Source: a virus. From it: DNA of 41,849 nucleotides. The stretch spans positions 1 to 41,849 of IMG/VR virus record IMGVR_UViG_3300042939_000524. One strand, given 5' to 3'. This document shows, one piece after another, positions 30,362 to 37,100 of this stretch. The stretch's first letter is position 1, and every line of letters begins with the position of its first letter. Both the position numbers and the translations under genes were made by a program. The notes under the pieces are model-generated. The model had not been told where the DNA came from and did not search any database. It worked only from the letters and a program-made list of their open reading frames with translations.

Positions 30362-31679
30362 TGAACTTTCGAATATTGTAATCGGATGCAATTTCAAAAA
30401 AATTTGCAAAAGAAAAATAACGCCAAGCATCTAAGGCGTGCGACTTGTCAGGATTGCGCTGCTTCCAAGTGTCCAAACTTATACGCCTATCGACCTTCGC
30501 CTCCTTTAAGTCTGTAATGAGAATCTTATTGTTGGGCTTACTGATTCGAATCTTGGCCTTGCTAAAAAGAAGCGTGTCCACAATCCGCGTGTTTAAGTGC
30601 GAAGGAGAAGAACGCATAATCTGTATGTTGTTCATTGTCAGTTGCATATAGTTGGCTATCAATTGATAAGCAGACATATTGCCGCTGGTAAACGCAGACC
30701 TCGCCTGACCAGCAGGGTCGCCGTTGATGATGTATCGCATTCCCGGATATTCGCTGCGTATCATTTCGCACATATCGCCAAGGTCGCCAATCCGGTAGGT
30801 CTTCAAAACATTTATGGTCGCATAGTGCTTATTACCTACGGCGTTTTTTGAGAATTGGCAAACAATACAAGTGTTTGTAATGTTAAAGTCAAAGGATAAG
30901 TAAAGGTCGTATTCGGGATGCGCACGGATTTCAGCATCCACCACATGAATCGATTCTTCAAAGTATTGCGCGTAAAGCGTTTCCCTATCCCACACGCCCC
31001 AATTCCCATTTGCATAGACATCCCAATAGGTATAGTCCACTTCCTTTAGGGCTTCCATCCTGATTGGATATTCGCGGTCAAGAAAACGCAGACTATCCTT
31101 ATAGGTGCTGTGGCATATTAGAATTTTCTCACGCTCAAGGGCTGGTGGGTTATCAAAGAATCGCTCCTTTATCCAATGGCTATCGGAAACGGGATTGAAT
31201 GTCAGGAAGAACCTCTTGGTGTGCTTGCTTACCCCGCGCAAACGCAGGGTAACTTGCATATAATCCTCTTTGCTCAACTCCGTAGCCTCTTCTACCCAAA
31301 TGTATTTGGCTTGGGTAAGCGACTTTAGCTTTTCAGGATTATCCACTCCCATAAAGATAATCCGGTTGGAGCGCGACCGGATTTCAAATATGCCATCAAA
31401 GGTTTGCACAAGGTCGCTCAAACCCCACTCAAATATCTTGTTCTTAAAGTCCATATAAACCGAAGTCCTTATGGTTGCCGCCACTTTACGCAGCACTACA
31501 TAAGTTTCGTTTTCATTTTCGTCATGGTTCAATATCTCTGAAAGAAAGTATTGAATCATGGTCTGACTTTTCCCGCTACCAGCGCCTCCAAAAAGGATAT
31601 TGTGAATCTTTGGCCGCGTAATGGCTGGTAGGTATTTGGGATTCCACAAATCGGGATTGCTCAAGTCCAATAAAGGCAT
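30339..31679 (-). CDS. terL: Terminase large subunit
   Basis: The 446-aa protein has the ATPase and nuclease layout of phage terminases (Terminase_3/6-like). Walker A is GGAGSGKS at residues 31-38, and Walker B with catalytic glutamates is YIWVEEAT at 126-133. A coupling-type motif is FFLTFNPVSD. The nuclease domain begins near YLSFDFNITNTCIV, with the first catalytic Asp. It cuts and pumps DNA into proheads through the portal. TerS is directly upstream. Confidence 0.95.
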   Translation of the reverse strand: MPLLDLSNPDLWNPKYLPAITRPKIHNILFGGAGSGKSQTMIQYFLSEILNHDENENETYVVLRKVAATIRTSVYMDFKNKIFEWGLSDLVQTFDGIFEIRSRSNRIIFMGVDNPEKLKSLTQAKYIWVEEATELSKEDYMQVTLRLRGVSKHTKRFFLTFNPVSDSHWIKERFFDNPPALEREKILICHSTYKDSLRFLDREYPIRMEALKEVDYTYWDVYANGNWGVWDRETLYAQYFEESIHVVDAEIRAHPEYDLYLSFDFNITNTCIVCQFSKNAVGNKHYATINVLKTYRIGDLGDMCEMIRSEYPGMRYIINGDPAGQARSAFTSGNMSAYQLIANYMQLTMNNIQIMRSSPSHLNTRIVDTLLFSKAKIRISKPNNKILITDLKEAKVDRRISLDTWKQRNPDKSHALDAWRYFSFANFFEIASDYNIRKFNAKMLQE

Positions 31680-31700
31680 TGATTGTATTTTTTTTAGTAT

Positions 31701-31729
31701 GGGTATCGACTTTTCCGAAGCCGATACCC
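31701..31729. other. Stem-loop in the TerS-TerL gap
   Basis: GGGTATCG (31701-31708) and CGATACCC (31722-31729) form a perfect 8-bp stem. It lies in the 62-nt gap between the terminase genes. There is no T-run directly after it in the direction of transcription, so it is not a standard terminator. A pac-site or mRNA-processing role is possible. Confidence 0.55.
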
Positions 31730-31741
31730 AAAATCATTGTA

Positions 31742-32137
31742 TTATTCCTCTATTTCAGCCTCGTCATCATGCGCATCCAGCGCACGGCGTTCTTTCTGTG
31801 GCTGTAACTCCGTTCCGGTTATCTCCAGCGTGGGATTGGGCGGCGGTAGCGGCATGATTACATTGGTGAACTGCGCCAGCACATCATGTTCCTGCTTCGC
31901 TTTGCCATATCCTCTATCCAAAAGAAGTTCGGCTGCGCGCACATCCCCCTTCAGGGCTTTTTGTCGCATAGCCATCAAGATAGCCTCTATTGCCATCTTG
32001 CCTTCTTTTGTTTCTGCTAAAACATTGATTAGCACTTCTTTAAGGTCTGGCAATTTTTTTGGCCTTCCTTTAGGATTGCCGCTTTGCCCCTTTTTCCATT
32101 GATGTTTTCTCAATGGGCCTACATCGCCTCTTGGCAT
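31742..32137 (-). CDS. Small terminase subunit-like protein (DUF5681-like)
   Basis: The 131-aa basic protein has the KKGQSGNPKGRPKK signature of DUF5681-type phage proteins near the N-terminus, then a helical region (LINVLAETKEGKMAIEAILM, KALKGDVRAAELLLDRGYGKA). Members occur just before the large terminase and are taken as the DNA-recognition subunit. Here the acidic tail ends DDEAEIEE. Adjacent to terL with a hairpin between. Confidence 0.8.
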   Translation of the reverse strand: MPRGDVGPLRKHQWKKGQSGNPKGRPKKLPDLKEVLINVLAETKEGKMAIEAILMAMRQKALKGDVRAAELLLDRGYGKAKQEHDVLAQFTNVIMPLPPPNPTLEITGTELQPQKERRALDAHDDEAEIEE

Positions 32138-32183
32138 AAGGTTGTTTTTAGATTAAATTTAAGACTGCAAAATAAGGCCGCTT

Positions 32184-32906
32184 TTAGCCAATCTTCCTAC
32201 CATTCCTTCTGATTTCCATGTCAGGGAACTTTTTTGACCATTTATTTACCCACGATTCAACATCGCCCGGCTTACGCGCAATACCATAATACCTGATATT
32301 CATCGCGTGTGCGCCCATCCATTTGTCTAAATCTCCCATGGAGTAGTCAAGGAATAAATTCTGAAACGCGGGGCTGCCGGAGGTCTGCGTTGGCTTATCG
32401 CCCTGCAAAATATTTTTTACGGTAAAATCATCTAAACCGGAGCCAACTAAAATCCGGTGTGGGCCGATTTCAATCAAATCCCCTTCCTCAAATTCAACTT
32501 CTACACCTTCGCCTTCACCGAATCCCAATTCCTCATTTTCATCTTCCGCAAAAATTGGCATATCCAAACCCCACTCTTCAAGCTGGTCAATATCCCACTC
32601 ATTTGCCAGCATATCCCAATCCCACGCCCCGAAAGAACCATTGTCTTTTATGATAAATTCACGCTGCTGACCCTCGCTCCAATCCACAACCTCAACCGGA
32701 ACTTCACGCCATCCAGCCTCTTTCATGGCCTTTAAACGCATATTTCCACCCAAAACCACCATGTCCTGATTTACAACTATCGGCCTGACCTCCGCCATTT
32801 CAGGAAAATCTTTAAGGCTTTTTACCAGCTTTCTGAATTGTTCATCTTTGATGAATCTTGGATTGTTTGGGTTCTCCTTTATGGAACCGATTTTCATTTT
32901 CTGCAT
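32184..32906 (-). CDS. ParB-like protein fused to a decayed DNA methyltransferase
   Basis: The start is at 32906 (MQKMKIG) or 32897 (MKIG). Residues 5-110 are a ParB/sulfiredoxin-type domain: ENPNNPRF, VVNQDMVVLGGNMRLKAMKEAG. Then comes GDLIEIGPHRILVGSG, the normal opening of the fused methyltransferase in phage ParB-MTases. The catalytic DPPY block is absent. The region that should be the SAM motif reads FLDYSMGDLDKWMG instead of D-x-F-x-G-S-G, yet the typical end (YYGIARKPGDVESWVNKW, then RRNG) remains. It appears to be a catalytically dead methyltransferase with a large internal deletion. Confidence 0.75.
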   Translation of the reverse strand: MQKMKIGSIKENPNNPRFIKDEQFRKLVKSLKDFPEMAEVRPIVVNQDMVVLGGNMRLKAMKEAGWREVPVEVVDWSEGQQREFIIKDNGSFGAWDWDMLANEWDIDQLEEWGLDMPIFAEDENEELGFGEGEGVEVEFEEGDLIEIGPHRILVGSGLDDFTVKNILQGDKPTQTSGSPAFQNLFLDYSMGDLDKWMGAHAMNIRYYGIARKPGDVESWVNKWSKKFPDMEIRRNGRKIG

Positions 32907-32957
32907 AAAAATTTTATTTTTTCTGCAATTTTAACTTTTTTTGCGCAAAATATCACA

Positions 32958-33218
32958 ATGACCACTCCGATTGAGAAGGCTATTGCTACCATAAAAGAAC
33001 GCATGGAGGACAAAAAAACGCAGTCTGATGACATCAAGTACGCACTTAGGGTACTTGAGGCTGCGCTTGCCGACCAAAAGAAGAATTTTGCCATGGTAGA
33101 TGCAGAGCATTTTCGATATGCCATATACAACGCCTTTAACGCCGGACACAACGCAGGAATCAGAAAGCAAATACCAAACCCAATCCTATACTTTAAAAAC
33201 ACATTTAAGAAAAACTAA
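32958..33218 (+). CDS. Hypothetical protein (86 aa)
   Basis: ATG 32958 (MTTPIEKAIATIKERM) gives 86 aa; the upstream extension lacks coding character. Mostly helical with a Lys-rich C-terminus (KNTFKKN). Not recognised. It is the first gene of the plus-strand accessory operon and ends just before the small paralogue array. Confidence 0.65.
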   Translation: MTTPIEKAIATIKERMEDKKTQSDDIKYALRVLEAALADQKKNFAMVDAEHFRYAIYNAFNAGHNAGIRKQIPNPILYFKNTFKKN

Positions 33219-33219
33219 T

Positions 33220-33462
33220 ATGGCACAGAAAGACAAGCAAGCCGTTATATGGCTGCAAGAAGCCCTTAACGACCATCTAAGCCCCGACCAACGCGCTTCC
33301 TTTGAAGGATTATTCCAGCAAGCCATTGGTTTAGAAAGAGAGCAAATAATGGATGCCTATTCCAATGGCGCAGAGGATGAGTATAACTATCAAATGGACA
33401 TACAAGGAAGACGCGAAGACATAGATTCTGAAATATATTTTAACAATACCTATGGCAACTGA
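33220..33462 (+). CDS. Tandem-array small protein 1 (WL...EREQIMDA family)
   Basis: The 80-aa protein starts MAQKDKQAVIWLQEAL and has LEREQIMDAYSNGAEDE, the signature shared by the next three genes (W-L near the start, then M/LE-x-x-QI-x-D-A/S). Genes of this type are very common in Bacteroidota phages, usually in tandem, with no known function. Its stop overlaps the next ATG within the codons for a C-terminal Tyr-Gly-Asn. Confidence 0.75.
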   Translation: MAQKDKQAVIWLQEALNDHLSPDQRASFEGLFQQAIGLEREQIMDAYSNGAEDEYNYQMDIQGRREDIDSEIYFNNTYGN

Positions 33463-33682
33463 ACTCGCAACCGAATGGCTTTACAGCGTATTTCAACTCT
33501 ACCAAAAGGGAAAACGCGAAGCGCCTAACCTTTGGGATTTTGAACGCGCTGTTCAAATGGAAAAACAACACATCATGGACGCTTACGCGCAGGGCGTAGT
33601 CGATGAAGCCAACGAAATCCTTGATGTCTATAAGGACGCAGAAGAATACTTTGATAGAGTTTTTATAGATGATAGACCATAA
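33452..33682 (+). CDS. Tandem-array small protein 2
   Basis: 76 aa. It begins MATELATEWLYSVFQLY and carries VQMEKQHIMDAYAQGVVDEA, the family signature. It overlaps the previous gene by 11 bases. The C-terminus (AEEYFDRVF) keeps the aromatic Y-[YF] element seen at the same place in members 3 and 4. Confidence 0.72.
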   Translation: MATELATEWLYSVFQLYQKGKREAPNLWDFERAVQMEKQHIMDAYAQGVVDEANEILDVYKDAEEYFDRVFIDDRP

Positions 33683-33690
33683 CGAATCCT

Positions 33691-33924
33691 ATGGAGAAGA
33701 ATCAAACGGCAGTGGAGTGGCTAAAAGAAAACCTACCATCCTTGTTTACAGATGATTCAGGTTATTATCAGAAACTATTCGCCAAAGCCAAAGCAATGGA
33801 GAAGGAGCAGATAATTGATTCATTTGATGAAGCAAGAACTTATGTGCTTAAAAATGTGTGGAAGCACGATGACGGAATACGATATTATGAAAATAAATAT
33901 GGAGAAGAATCAAACGGCAGTTAG
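33691..33924 (+). CDS. Tandem-array small protein 3
   Basis: 77 aa, starting MEKNQTAVEWLKENL, with AMEKEQIIDSFDEA and YYENKYG. Its first 23 bases are identical to the start of member 4 (33899-33921), direct evidence of tandem duplication. The last 26 bases of this gene overlap member 4 in another frame, so the duplicated start of member 4 is translated here as a short tail after YG. Confidence 0.72.
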   Translation: MEKNQTAVEWLKENLPSLFTDDSGYYQKLFAKAKAMEKEQIIDSFDEARTYVLKNVWKHDDGIRYYENKYGEESNGS

Positions 33925-34108
33925 TTGGCTCTTAGACCAATATATTAAATGTCGCGGCCTTATTACCGAGGATGCTATAAAGGAGGCATTTGAAATGGAG
34001 AGATTCCAAATCATTGATGCCCACGAAGCCGCTTATGTTTCCATGAACCTTGCCTTTAGAGGATTCGATAGGGCTATTGAGTATTATGAGAAAACTTATG
34101 GTGATTAG
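33899..34108 (+). CDS. Tandem-array small protein 4
   Basis: ATG 33899 gives 69 aa starting MEKNQTAVSWLLDQY, with FEMERFQIIDAHEA and a C-terminal IEYYEKTYGD. Frames extending further upstream are overlaps with member 3 and not used. The stop lies 4 bases before the first attC-like site (34113). Confidence 0.72.
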   Translation: MEKNQTAVSWLLDQYIKCRGLITEDAIKEAFEMERFQIIDAHEAAYVSMNLAFRGFDRAIEYYEKTYGD

Positions 34109-34112
34109 TATT

Positions 34113-34246
34113 GCTGATAACGTAAAAGCATTGGCGAAGTAGCCGAAATAGAATTACAATTTTTCAATACAGCACAAATGATGATAGAAGAACAAAGCCC
34201 AATAACAGCACTGAAACGGCTATTTTGCCAATGCAGTGTTATAAGC
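34113..34246 (+). repeat. attC-like inverted repeat, site A
   Basis: The outer arms are GCTGATAAC (34113-34121) and GTTATAAGC (34238-34246), inverted with one mismatch. The inner arms, 34128-34145 and 34217-34234, pair over 18 positions with two G-T wobbles. The 71-nt centre gives a total of 134 bp. Size, AAC/GTT outer boxes, imperfect inner stem and place just after a stop codon match integron attC sites. Confidence 0.65.
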
Positions 34247-34313
34247 TGGCTGCGGTTAATTAAACGAAAAACTTAAATCGAAGCAATAAACAAAAGAATT
34301 AAAAAAAAGAGGG

Positions 34314-35114
34314 ATGGAAATAAATAAAATATACAACGAAAATTGCCTTGATACAATGGCTAAAATGCCTGATAATTTCATTGACTTAACGGTTACTTCA
34401 CCGCCTTACGATGATTTAAGAACTTACAATGGATATTGTTTTGACTTTGAAAATGTAGCAAAGGAATTATTCAGAGTAACGAAACAAGGCGGTGTTGTTG
34501 TTTGGAATGTAAACGATGCCACAAAGAACGGAAGTGAAACACTTACATCTTTAAGGCAAGTTTTGTTCTTTAATCAAATTGGTTTCAATGTAGAAACTAT
34601 GATTTGGGAAAAGACTGGAAGCGGTTGTTTAGGTAGTAATAAGTTTTATGGACAAAACTTTGAGTATATGTTTATACTAACCAAAGGGATGCCAAAAACA
34701 ACGAACTTAATTTGTGATAGGGAAAACAAAGTTAAAAGCGGAACTGTAAAGGTGAATGGAGGACTTGACAAAACAGGCAAAGGAAAAGACAGGATAGTGG
34801 AAAGAAAGCCATTTGGAAAAAGAAACAATATTTGGCGATTTGATACACAAAAAAATACTGAACATCCTGCACCTTTCCCTGAACAATTAGCAAACGACCA
34901 TATTATTACTTGGAGCAATGAAAATGATTTGATTTACGATTGTTTTATGGGAAGTGGAACAACGGCTAAAATGGCGATTTTAAACAACAGAAAATACATT
35001 GGCAGTGAAATTTCAGAAGAATATTGTAAGATTATTGAAACTCGTATTAAAGAGTGCGGTGGGCTTTTTTTTAATTCTTTTGAAACGGAATTGTCAAACG
35101 AAGCAGGAACGTAG
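34314..35114 (+). CDS. Site-specific DNA methyltransferase (N4-cytosine/N6-adenine type)
   Basis: The 266-aa protein has the beta-class layout: catalytic motif IV TSPPYDD (S29-P-P-Y32) near the N-terminus and the SAM-binding motif I DCFMGSGTT (about 209-217) near the C-terminus. A variable recognition region (NKVKSGTVKVNGGLDKTGKG) lies between, then KRNNIWRF. SPPY suggests N4-cytosine but does not exclude N6-adenine. No restriction enzyme gene is adjacent, so it is an orphan methyltransferase, likely protecting phage DNA or acting as cargo. It sits between attC-like site A and the site-B remnant. An AT-rich RBS-like AAAAAGAGGG precedes the ATG. Confidence 0.9.
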   Translation: MEINKIYNENCLDTMAKMPDNFIDLTVTSPPYDDLRTYNGYCFDFENVAKELFRVTKQGGVVVWNVNDATKNGSETLTSLRQVLFFNQIGFNVETMIWEKTGSGCLGSNKFYGQNFEYMFILTKGMPKTTNLICDRENKVKSGTVKVNGGLDKTGKGKDRIVERKPFGKRNNIWRFDTQKNTEHPAPFPEQLANDHIITWSNENDLIYDCFMGSGTTAKMAILNNRKYIGSEISEEYCKIIETRIKECGGLFFNSFETELSNEAGT

Positions 35115-35120
35115 CGGCTT

Positions 35121-35146
35121 GCTTATAACGTTTTGCGGCTAAACGA
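35121..35146 (+). repeat. attC-like half-site B and cassette leader
   Basis: GCTTATAACG at 35121-35130 is identical to the left box of site C and close to that of site A. The rest of an attC fold is missing. TGCGGCTAAACGA (35134-35146) matches the leader motif after sites A (34251-34267) and C (35511-35527). It looks like an attC reduced by deletion. A short hairpin, CGAGGT/ACCTCG, follows at 35144-35165. Confidence 0.45.
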
Positions 35147-35184
35147 GGTGGCTGATTATACCTCGAAACTTAATACGAAGAACA

Positions 35185-35415
35185 ATGGATAATTTAAACG
35201 AAAAACTTTCAGACGAAGCACAAAGCCAGCCATCTTGTTTAGGTGCTGTTGTAAGCCGTTTTAATTCAGATACATTTATTGATAATGTGTGTTTGAGTTA
35301 TAGGCACGACTTTGGATTAATGGCAGAACAAGACCGACAAAGGCTAAGGTTTGAGTGTAAAGAATGGATGAGGGCAATAAGTAATAATTGGGAGTATTTC
35401 AAAAATGGCTTATAA
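35185..35415 (+). CDS. Cassette ORF, unknown (76 aa)
   Basis: Not recognised. The 76-aa protein starts MDNLNEKLSDEAQSQPSCLG and has a helical C-terminus (RLRFECKEWMRAISNNWEYF). Its stop codon TAA lies inside the left box of attC-like site C, the arrangement seen in integron cassettes. The leader between 35131 and 35184 contains the shared TGCGG-TAA-AAACGA motif. Confidence 0.65.
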   Translation: MDNLNEKLSDEAQSQPSCLGAVVSRFNSDTFIDNVCLSYRHDFGLMAEQDRQRLRFECKEWMRAISNNWEYFKNGL

Positions 35416-35504
35416 CGGTTGGGGCATATACGCTGCCCCGTAATTGAAAAACAAAAGTTTAACAGCGTATCATCCGCAGGGGTAGCGTATATGCCTTGTT
35501 AGCG
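35408..35504 (+). repeat. attC-like inverted repeat, site C
   Basis: The inner arms, 35423-35439 and 35479-35495, pair over 17 positions with one G-T wobble. The outer boxes are GCTTATAACG (35408-35417) and GTTAGCGG (35498-35505 region). The total of about 97 bp, a long central loop and an AAC/GTT pair at the ends match the attC fold. It lies directly after the 35185 ORF. Confidence 0.65.
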
Positions 35505-35529
35505 GTTCGGTGCGGTAAATGAAACGAAA

Positions 35530-35742
35530 ATGAAAATAAAAATGACAGTTGAGTTAGATTGTAGAAGTTGGATGGACGATGACATTGAGCCAAAAAACAA
35601 AGCCGAATGGACGGAGTTCTTTATGAAATATCTTATTGAATACCCAAAGTCTATTATCGGTTCGGAAACAGAAAATGGGCAAGAAATTATTGCTTTGGAT
35701 AGTTTCAGTATAGAAGTAACGGATGTTAGCAATGACCGCTAA
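35530..35742 (+). CDS. Cassette ORF, unknown (70 aa)
   Basis: Not recognised. The 70-aa acidic protein starts MKIKMTVELDCRSWMDDDIE and appears to be an alpha/beta fold (beta MTVELDC, helix EWTEFFMKYLIEY, beta EIIALDSFSIEV). The stop TAA lies in a CGCTAAC box that pairs with GTTAGC 14 bases upstream (35725-35730). This is what remains of a fourth cassette end. The leader again holds TGCGGTAAATGAAACGA. Confidence 0.62.
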   Translation: MKIKMTVELDCRSWMDDDIEPKNKAEWTEFFMKYLIEYPKSIIGSETENGQEIIALDSFSIEVTDVSNDR

Positions 35743-35770
35743 CTATCCCATTTCCGCAATATTGCGTGAT

Positions 35771-36390: not shown

Positions 36391-37100
36391 TTTTCGCCCA
36401 AAAACCGCGATTCCAGCGAATTGAGCGGGTTTTTGCGCTTTGCTACGCGGAAATTCGGTTATTTGAATATTCAAATTCAGATTTTTCGCGCGCATTTTCG
36501 TCCTGACTTTGCGCGCCGGCTGGCGGTCGGTCGGATTGCGCACAAAGCGCCGGCCGGATTGCGCGCGGCCTACTTTTGCACGCGCGTTTTTTTTGGCAGA
36601 CCGGCAAAGGAAAAAACTACCTACCTACCTGACCACTGCCAGCCTTACCGCCTGACCTGACTGCTGACCGAAACGCCTGACCGCTGACCGCCTGACCGAA
36701 ACGAAACGCCTTACGCCTGACCGGCTGGCGCTGACCTTACCGCCTGACCGGCTGACCGCTGACCGCCTGACCGCCTTACCTGACCGGCTGGCGTGCTGAC
36801 CGCCTTACCTGACCGCTGACCGCATTGCTGGCATTGCTGGCGTGCTGACCGCCTGACCTGACCGGCTGGCGCTGGCTGGCTTACTTGTGCAATCCTTGCG
36901 CGATTGCCGGCGCAATCAGCGGCGCGGCTGGCGCTTACCTTACCGGCTGGCGCTGGCGTGCTGGCCTGACCTTACCGGCTGGCAAAAAGTAAGGCGCTGA
37001 AAAAGCGGCTTTGATAGCTGGCCGGATATTGCCTGAATTTCGCATTTAAAGGCATCGCTGGCGCGCTTTCTTTTGCCGGCTGATTTCTGATATTACCAAC
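36391..37100. repeat. GC-rich non-coding tract of CTGACCG/GGCTGGCG words
   Basis: From about 36600 to 36990 the sequence is made almost entirely of irregularly ordered CTGACCG, CCTTACC, GGCTGGCG and CGAAACG words, without a stable period and without a convincing ORF. At 36461-36474 there is a 14-bp perfect palindrome, TTTGAATATTCAAA. The same words appear at 40200-40440. Function unknown; it separates the amidoligase operon from the cassette region. Confidence 0.7.

Follow-up and report, generated by a model that had tools for sequence, protein, structure and literature searches.

The locus analysed here raises the question whether consecutive genes of a phage that are separated by inverted repeats have been acquired as integron-like gene cassettes, and which enzyme might have moved them. 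The DNA under study, in the following called the window, is a viral record of 41.8 kb with phage genes including those for a tape measure protein and a large terminase. Our comparisons make it quite probable that positions 34122-35743 of the window represent a recombinase-less array of three cassettes, which belongs to an integron-like system of Bacteroidota and phages. Phage CALINs with methyltransferase genes are already known; Qi et al. (2023; PMC9892861) reported 17 phage CALINs and described DNA methyltransferase cassettes in virulent phages.

Layout of the array and its hairpin sites

The original prediction, which was made from the sequence alone, described three ORFs separated by two attC-type sites, and its ORFs and boxes were found as described on re-examination. 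A grammar scan with the pattern AAC, spacer, stem, loop, stem, GTT detected exactly three sites in the 41.8 kb, all of them in the array, and none in three shuffled versions. Hence, both predicted sites were recovered by the scan, while a third complete site, attC2, had been missed; it begins with the second 'GCTTATAACG' of the prediction. All sites and ORFs of the array are located on the + strand, and each site was recognized by the scan as well as by folding. The array is preceded by the left insertion box GCTGATAAC (34113-34121), which is conserved in the sister phage L098 and there precedes a different cassette. Its AAC core (34119-34121) represents the last bases of the phage-derived left flank. 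Cassette unit 1 (34122-35129) consists of hairpin, leader, methyltransferase ORF and the 3' box GCTTATAAC, with boundaries deduced from L098 and from a 944-bp insertion in another phage, L002. Its attC1-like site (34113-34246) has the outer boxes GCTGATAACG and GTTATAAGC and arms at 34128-34145 and 34217-34234, and ORF1 (34314-35114) encodes an N6/N4 DNA methyltransferase of 266 aa (PF01555, Pfam E 3.4e-40).

The boundaries of unit 2 (35130-35416), comprising the attC2 hairpin, ORF2 and a further copy of the 3' box GCTTATAAC at 35408-35416, were set from the scan and by analogy with unit 1. Its attC2-like site (35121-35256) is composed of GCTTATAAC, the arm GCGGCTAAACGAGGTGGCTG, the loop, the arm CAGCCATCTTGTTTAGGTGC and GTTGTAAGC. 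The start codon of ORF2 (35185-35415, 76 aa) lies inside the attC2 loop, and the translation passes through the 3' arm and the R box of this site (MDNLNEKLSDEAQSQPSCLGAVVSR...). Unit 3 (35417-35743) contains the attC3 hairpin, ORF3 (35530-35742, 70 aa) and the 3' box CCGCTAAC; the attC3-like site extends from GCTTATAACG to GTTAGCGG (35408-35505). The terminal box CCGCTAAC (35736-35743), which was placed by alignment with L098 and the more distant relative L099, is the reverse complement of the start of the unit 3 GTT box GTTAGCGG, and the phage backbone restarts at 35744. The common leader, predicted at 34251, 35134 and 35511, is present downstream of attC1 (about 34249) and attC3 (about 35508), while the copy at 35134 turned out to be the attC2 5' arm. 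ORF2 and ORF3 have no Pfam match, and for ORF3 no relative was found among the viral contigs searched. As predicted, no integrase is encoded, since PF00589 has no match in the window. The array is CALIN-like, having three sites without an integrase, provided that the sites count as attC.

Some further features were noticed around the array. To its left, at 33452-34108, three short similar ORFs are arranged in tandem (e.g. MEKNQTAVSWLLDQYI...). Long C and G runs occur at about 36050 and 36340, and the G+C-rich stretch at 36600-37000 contains dense degenerate direct repeats around CTGACCG/GCTGGC.

When the + strand was folded as single-stranded DNA, a full hairpin was obtained at attC1, attC2 and attC3 with z-scores of -4.10, -3.27 and -4.79, respectively, and none of 200 shuffles equalled the + strand sites, whereas the - strand folded more weakly at all three (-1.68, +0.58 and -3.94). 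The AAC/GTT boxes, an inner stem and a variable loop are all present on the folded strand. The hairpin of this ORF-sense strand starts with a 10-bp outer stem with a G.T pair adjoining the core, which is followed by a T-rich 5' bulge of 4 nt (5 nt in attC1) and a stem of about 20 bp with G.T wobbles. The site consensus GCnn(A/C)TAACG ... T, GTTAnnnGC agrees with the classical RYYYAAC / GTTRRRY only in the AAC/GTTA part; furthermore, it includes a near-invariant A 7 nt upstream of GTT and one stem position with a conserved G.T wobble. Single extrahelical bases were absent from the folds of the window, and ungapped stems sufficed for the detection of sites throughout. Because G.T had an advantage over A.C in our initial polarity scoring, the sites were rescored with both pairs treated alike. 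The strand whose 5' spacer is long still showed an excess of G.T (178 G.T vs 52 A.C at viral sites, 87 vs 37 at bacterial sites), which indicates that wobbles and the one-sided T-rich bulge, and not extrahelical bases as in IntI integrons, mark one strand as the better hairpin. An Rfam search of the array region gave only a sub-threshold chance hit.

Cassette exchange and empty sites in related phages

The sister phage L098, from a viral contig of 10.9 kb, shares 98.4% identity with positions 30409-33683 of the window, and the flanks on both sides of the array show 91-96% identity. Between the same AAC cores, L098 harbours one unit of 856 bp with a different PF01555 methyltransferase, whereas the window harbours three units of together 1622 bp. 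The distant relatives L099 and L100 have no cassette at this locus; since L099 contains another ORF there and its core reads AA instead of AAC, it does not qualify as a clean empty counterpart of the window locus. Such a comparison was possible with the unrelated phage L002, which carries a window-type methyltransferase (94% protein identity) bounded by the same boxes. In the empty site of L208, GTTACAAAAAC is directly followed by AAACGAAATAAACG, while in the occupied site of L002 the same sequences enclose 944 bp consisting of hairpin, leader, ORF and closing box, and apart from the 3-bp core no duplication of the target is visible. The empty site among the relatives of L002 thus defines the unit, and it places the hairpin on the 5' side of the gene in phage. 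The exchange seen in L098 and these empty sites agree with the cassette behaviour and the precise core boundaries of the original prediction, and argue that the units are mobile precisely at the box.

The methyltransferase module GTTATAAGC...GCTTATAAC was found in L002, L004, L005, L006, L010, L011, L015, L018 and at 34238-35129 of the window. It is flanked by differing hairpins, hence, hairpins and ORF modules seem to swap separately, which is beyond a simple exchange of units. The interpretation of the methyltransferase unit as a simple inverted-repeat element had also been considered, and was dropped because the empty sites place the 5' hairpin within the unit.

Recombinase-linked arrays in phages and Bacteroidota

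Arrays of this type also occur next to a recombinase gene. The viral contig G004 (169 kb), which encodes a relative of the window methyltransferase, contains 38 sites, which all lie on the same strand in the interval of about 77.8-114.9 kb, and 78 of the 80 ORFs are located on this strand likewise. In this array and recombinase region (77.8-116.6 kb, loci L103-L111), the array ends with the box GCACATAAC immediately before the contig's own tyrosine recombinase gene. The recombinase of phage contig L113 is 79% identical to that of G004, and the sequences before the two genes are alike from just after the AAC but differ on the cassette side, a break as expected for attI.

Relatives of this recombinase were found with E <= 1e-30 in 113 of 296 sampled Bacteroidota genomes, for which the phylum was checked by the T9SS sorting domain (present in 78 of 99 genomes). 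The family proper is reached at about E <= 1e-40, a level attained in only 2 of 200 genomes from the phylum of a Paraglaciecola MAG; in one genome of the latter phylum, G459, a recombinase relative with 35% identity occurs in four copies of equal score (L291, L293-L295), as could be the case for an insertion element. A polar scan of 40 Bacteroidota recombinase loci (L146-L185) revealed 68 sites in 29 loci and none in the other 11. All but one of these sites (67/68) face the recombinase, regardless of the strand of its gene. Among the controls, 20 XerC/D loci (335 kb) gave one site, and shuffled sequence likewise one. The sequence on the recombinase side is conserved up to an AAC or GTT and unrelated beyond it; for example, L156 and L158 are 98% identical over recombinase and attI without any mutual similarity further on. 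Hence, an attI-like site adjoins the recombinase in these platforms, as in IntI integrons, though not in the window.

The tyrosine recombinases in question are XerA-like. They share the catalytic domain and the RKHRHY residues with XerA and XerC/D (NF040815), and lack the insert of about 41 residues that defines integron integrases, since the spacing between the KDR arginine and the HxLRH histidine is 59-64 aa in 41 recombinases vs 101 in an IntI. One recombinase that was scanned scored under the TIGR02249 cut-off, and the closest solved structure was 4a8e (annotated as XerC-like). In the phylogenetic tree, the array-linked recombinases form a clade apart from XerC/D of their hosts (support 100/100), while IntI is one clade among insert-less recombinases, with weak support. 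The insert has been found to be required for integrase activity (Messier and Roy 2001, as cited in PMC9668308), and the recognition of IntI by IntegronFinder relies on it. A platform without this domain would therefore escape tools of this kind. About one in three of the Bacteroidota genomes sampled has a relative of its recombinase.

It has to be considered whether the window harbours a classical CALIN, i.e. ordinary attC sites with cassettes moved by a true IntI from the host or a co-infecting element. From Bacteroidetes proper, one complete integron, that of Salinibacter, was reported with IntegronFinder 2.0 (PMC9024848). IntI above the family cut-off was detected in 82 of 292 sampled Bacteroidota genomes. 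Moreover, the class 1 enzyme IntI1 was reported to recombine P12002L_attC2 in E. coli, with the correct R box being used (PMC9892861), and this Polaribacter phage, P12002L, has sites of the window type. In the same paper, P12002L is described as having two attC sites of divergent direction; our polar scan of its cassette region at 31-41 kb (L115) gave eight sites, all on the ORF strand. On account of the E. coli result, IntI is a possible acting enzyme. However, 20 IntI loci from the same phylum (L271-L290, 329 kb) contained no credible site of this type, whereas such sites are numerous at XerA-like loci and, with one exception, face the recombinase. Furthermore, the sites show no extrahelical bases. 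The near absence of sites at XerC/D and IntI loci ties the site type to the XerA-like enzyme, and a classical CALIN is regarded as rather improbable. The description as CALIN-like with capture by a host recombinase, as given in the original prediction, is in keeping with the lack of a recombinase in the window, whereas the classical details do not apply: the platform recombinase has no IntI-specific domain, the sites have no extrahelical bases and the phage cassettes are inverted. The presumed rarity of phages with such arrays did not hold, since a single site-pattern search retrieved 42 viral contig stretches, and 17 phage CALINs were reported by Qi et al. (2023).

Cassette direction, proposed mechanism and cargo

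As in class 1 integrons and Vibrio superintegrons, or in CALINs, the arrays consist of tandem single-gene cassettes with AAC/GTT hairpin sites and a putative G|TT-type crossover. The bacterial arrays also show the classical direction, their ORFs running away from the recombinase (35,923 vs 2,961 aa) and the folded strand being antisense to the ORFs. The phage cassettes, unlike those of IntI integrons, have the opposite direction relative to the site. This applies to all 87 flanking ORFs in the pattern-sampled contigs, to 54 of 55 in G004 and, for the window together with P12002L, to 16 of 16, vs 18 of 104 at bacterial loci. Accordingly, the reading from attI to the own attC that characterizes gene cassettes is found in the bacterial arrays, but not in the window and the other phage arrays. 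An inverted direction of every cassette in the system had been assumed at first, but was dropped in view of the classical direction of the bacterial ORFs. A start codon in the hairpin loop, with the 3' arm and box translated in frame, occurs at 34 of 66 pattern-sampled phage sites and at 12 of 37 G004 sites as well as in ORF2 of the window, whereas bacterial sites have a start codon in the loop in 7 of 68 and 2 of 68 cases on the two strands. The recombination site thereby doubles as the beginning of the gene, which may be the reason for the inverted layout.

These data also bear on the notion that no recombination system is involved, the hairpins acting as terminators or RNA elements, with ordinary homologous recombination between their repeated copies accounting for the differing cassettes of phages. 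The G.T wobbles on the ORF-sense strand allow the RNA to fold as well, and hairpins are common to several cassettes. However, the exact insertion relative to the empty site with just the 3-bp core in common, the conserved attI-like boundaries, the dependence of site orientation on the position of the recombinase and not on its gene strand, and the antisense folding in bacteria all speak against it and make it very unlikely. MITE- or HUH-type (IS200/IS605-like) units with inverted ends and a transposase acting in trans would explain the inverted terminal boxes and further internal inverted repeats of the GTTATAAGC...GCTTATAAC module and the hairpins typical of single-stranded transposition, but can practically be dismissed, as the arrays have a tandem, polar arrangement that terminates at a tyrosine recombinase, target duplication is limited to the 3-bp core and no transposase adjoins the insertions inspected by eye.

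We therefore return to the integron-like system, in which a unit of hairpin, leader or start codon, ORF and closing box would enter at the 3-bp AAC/GTT core. The XerA-like enzyme without IntI insert, which presumably comes from the Bacteroidota host or from a phage infecting the same cell, would act on the folded single + strand and join the unit to attI or to a secondary AAC target such as that in the phage of the window. The system appears to be integron-like in its working, yet falls outside the integrons as defined by IntI. On balance, we lean towards the broader notion of a widespread Bacteroidota platform based on an insert-less XerA-like recombinase, distinct from the IntI integrons that occur in this phylum and perhaps near the ancestral stock of IntI, with an inverted phage branch in which the hairpin provides the start codon and first residues and which is used by the phages as a reserve of interchangeable DNA-modification genes. 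In the open-access literature searched, we found no description of an IntI-less Bacteroidota cassette platform or of inverted phage cassettes, and the consulted passages of Qi et al. (2023; PMC9892861) likewise contain no IntI-less platform, empty sites or inverted layout. If correct, IntI-less cassette exchange would be common in a major phylum, anti-restriction methyltransferases would be traded among phages via the platform, and one could directly test how the IntI insert and the recombination of cassettes as single strands originated.

Regarding the cargo, 49 viral cassette ORFs include 15 PF01555 methyltransferases and 5 C5 methylases, and also Mom, a TET-associated glycosyltransferase and other methyltransferases, while the 41 ORFs of the G004 array comprise 15 PF01555 and two Dam proteins. 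DNA-modification enzymes are thus present in about half of the phage cassettes, which suggests anti-restriction as the likely benefit. The N6/N4 DNA methyltransferase of the window would likewise guard the phage DNA against host restriction. The bacterial cassettes differ from these and encode LinB-like nucleotidyltransferases, GmrSD restriction enzymes, AbiEii, small multidrug resistance proteins and many singletons.
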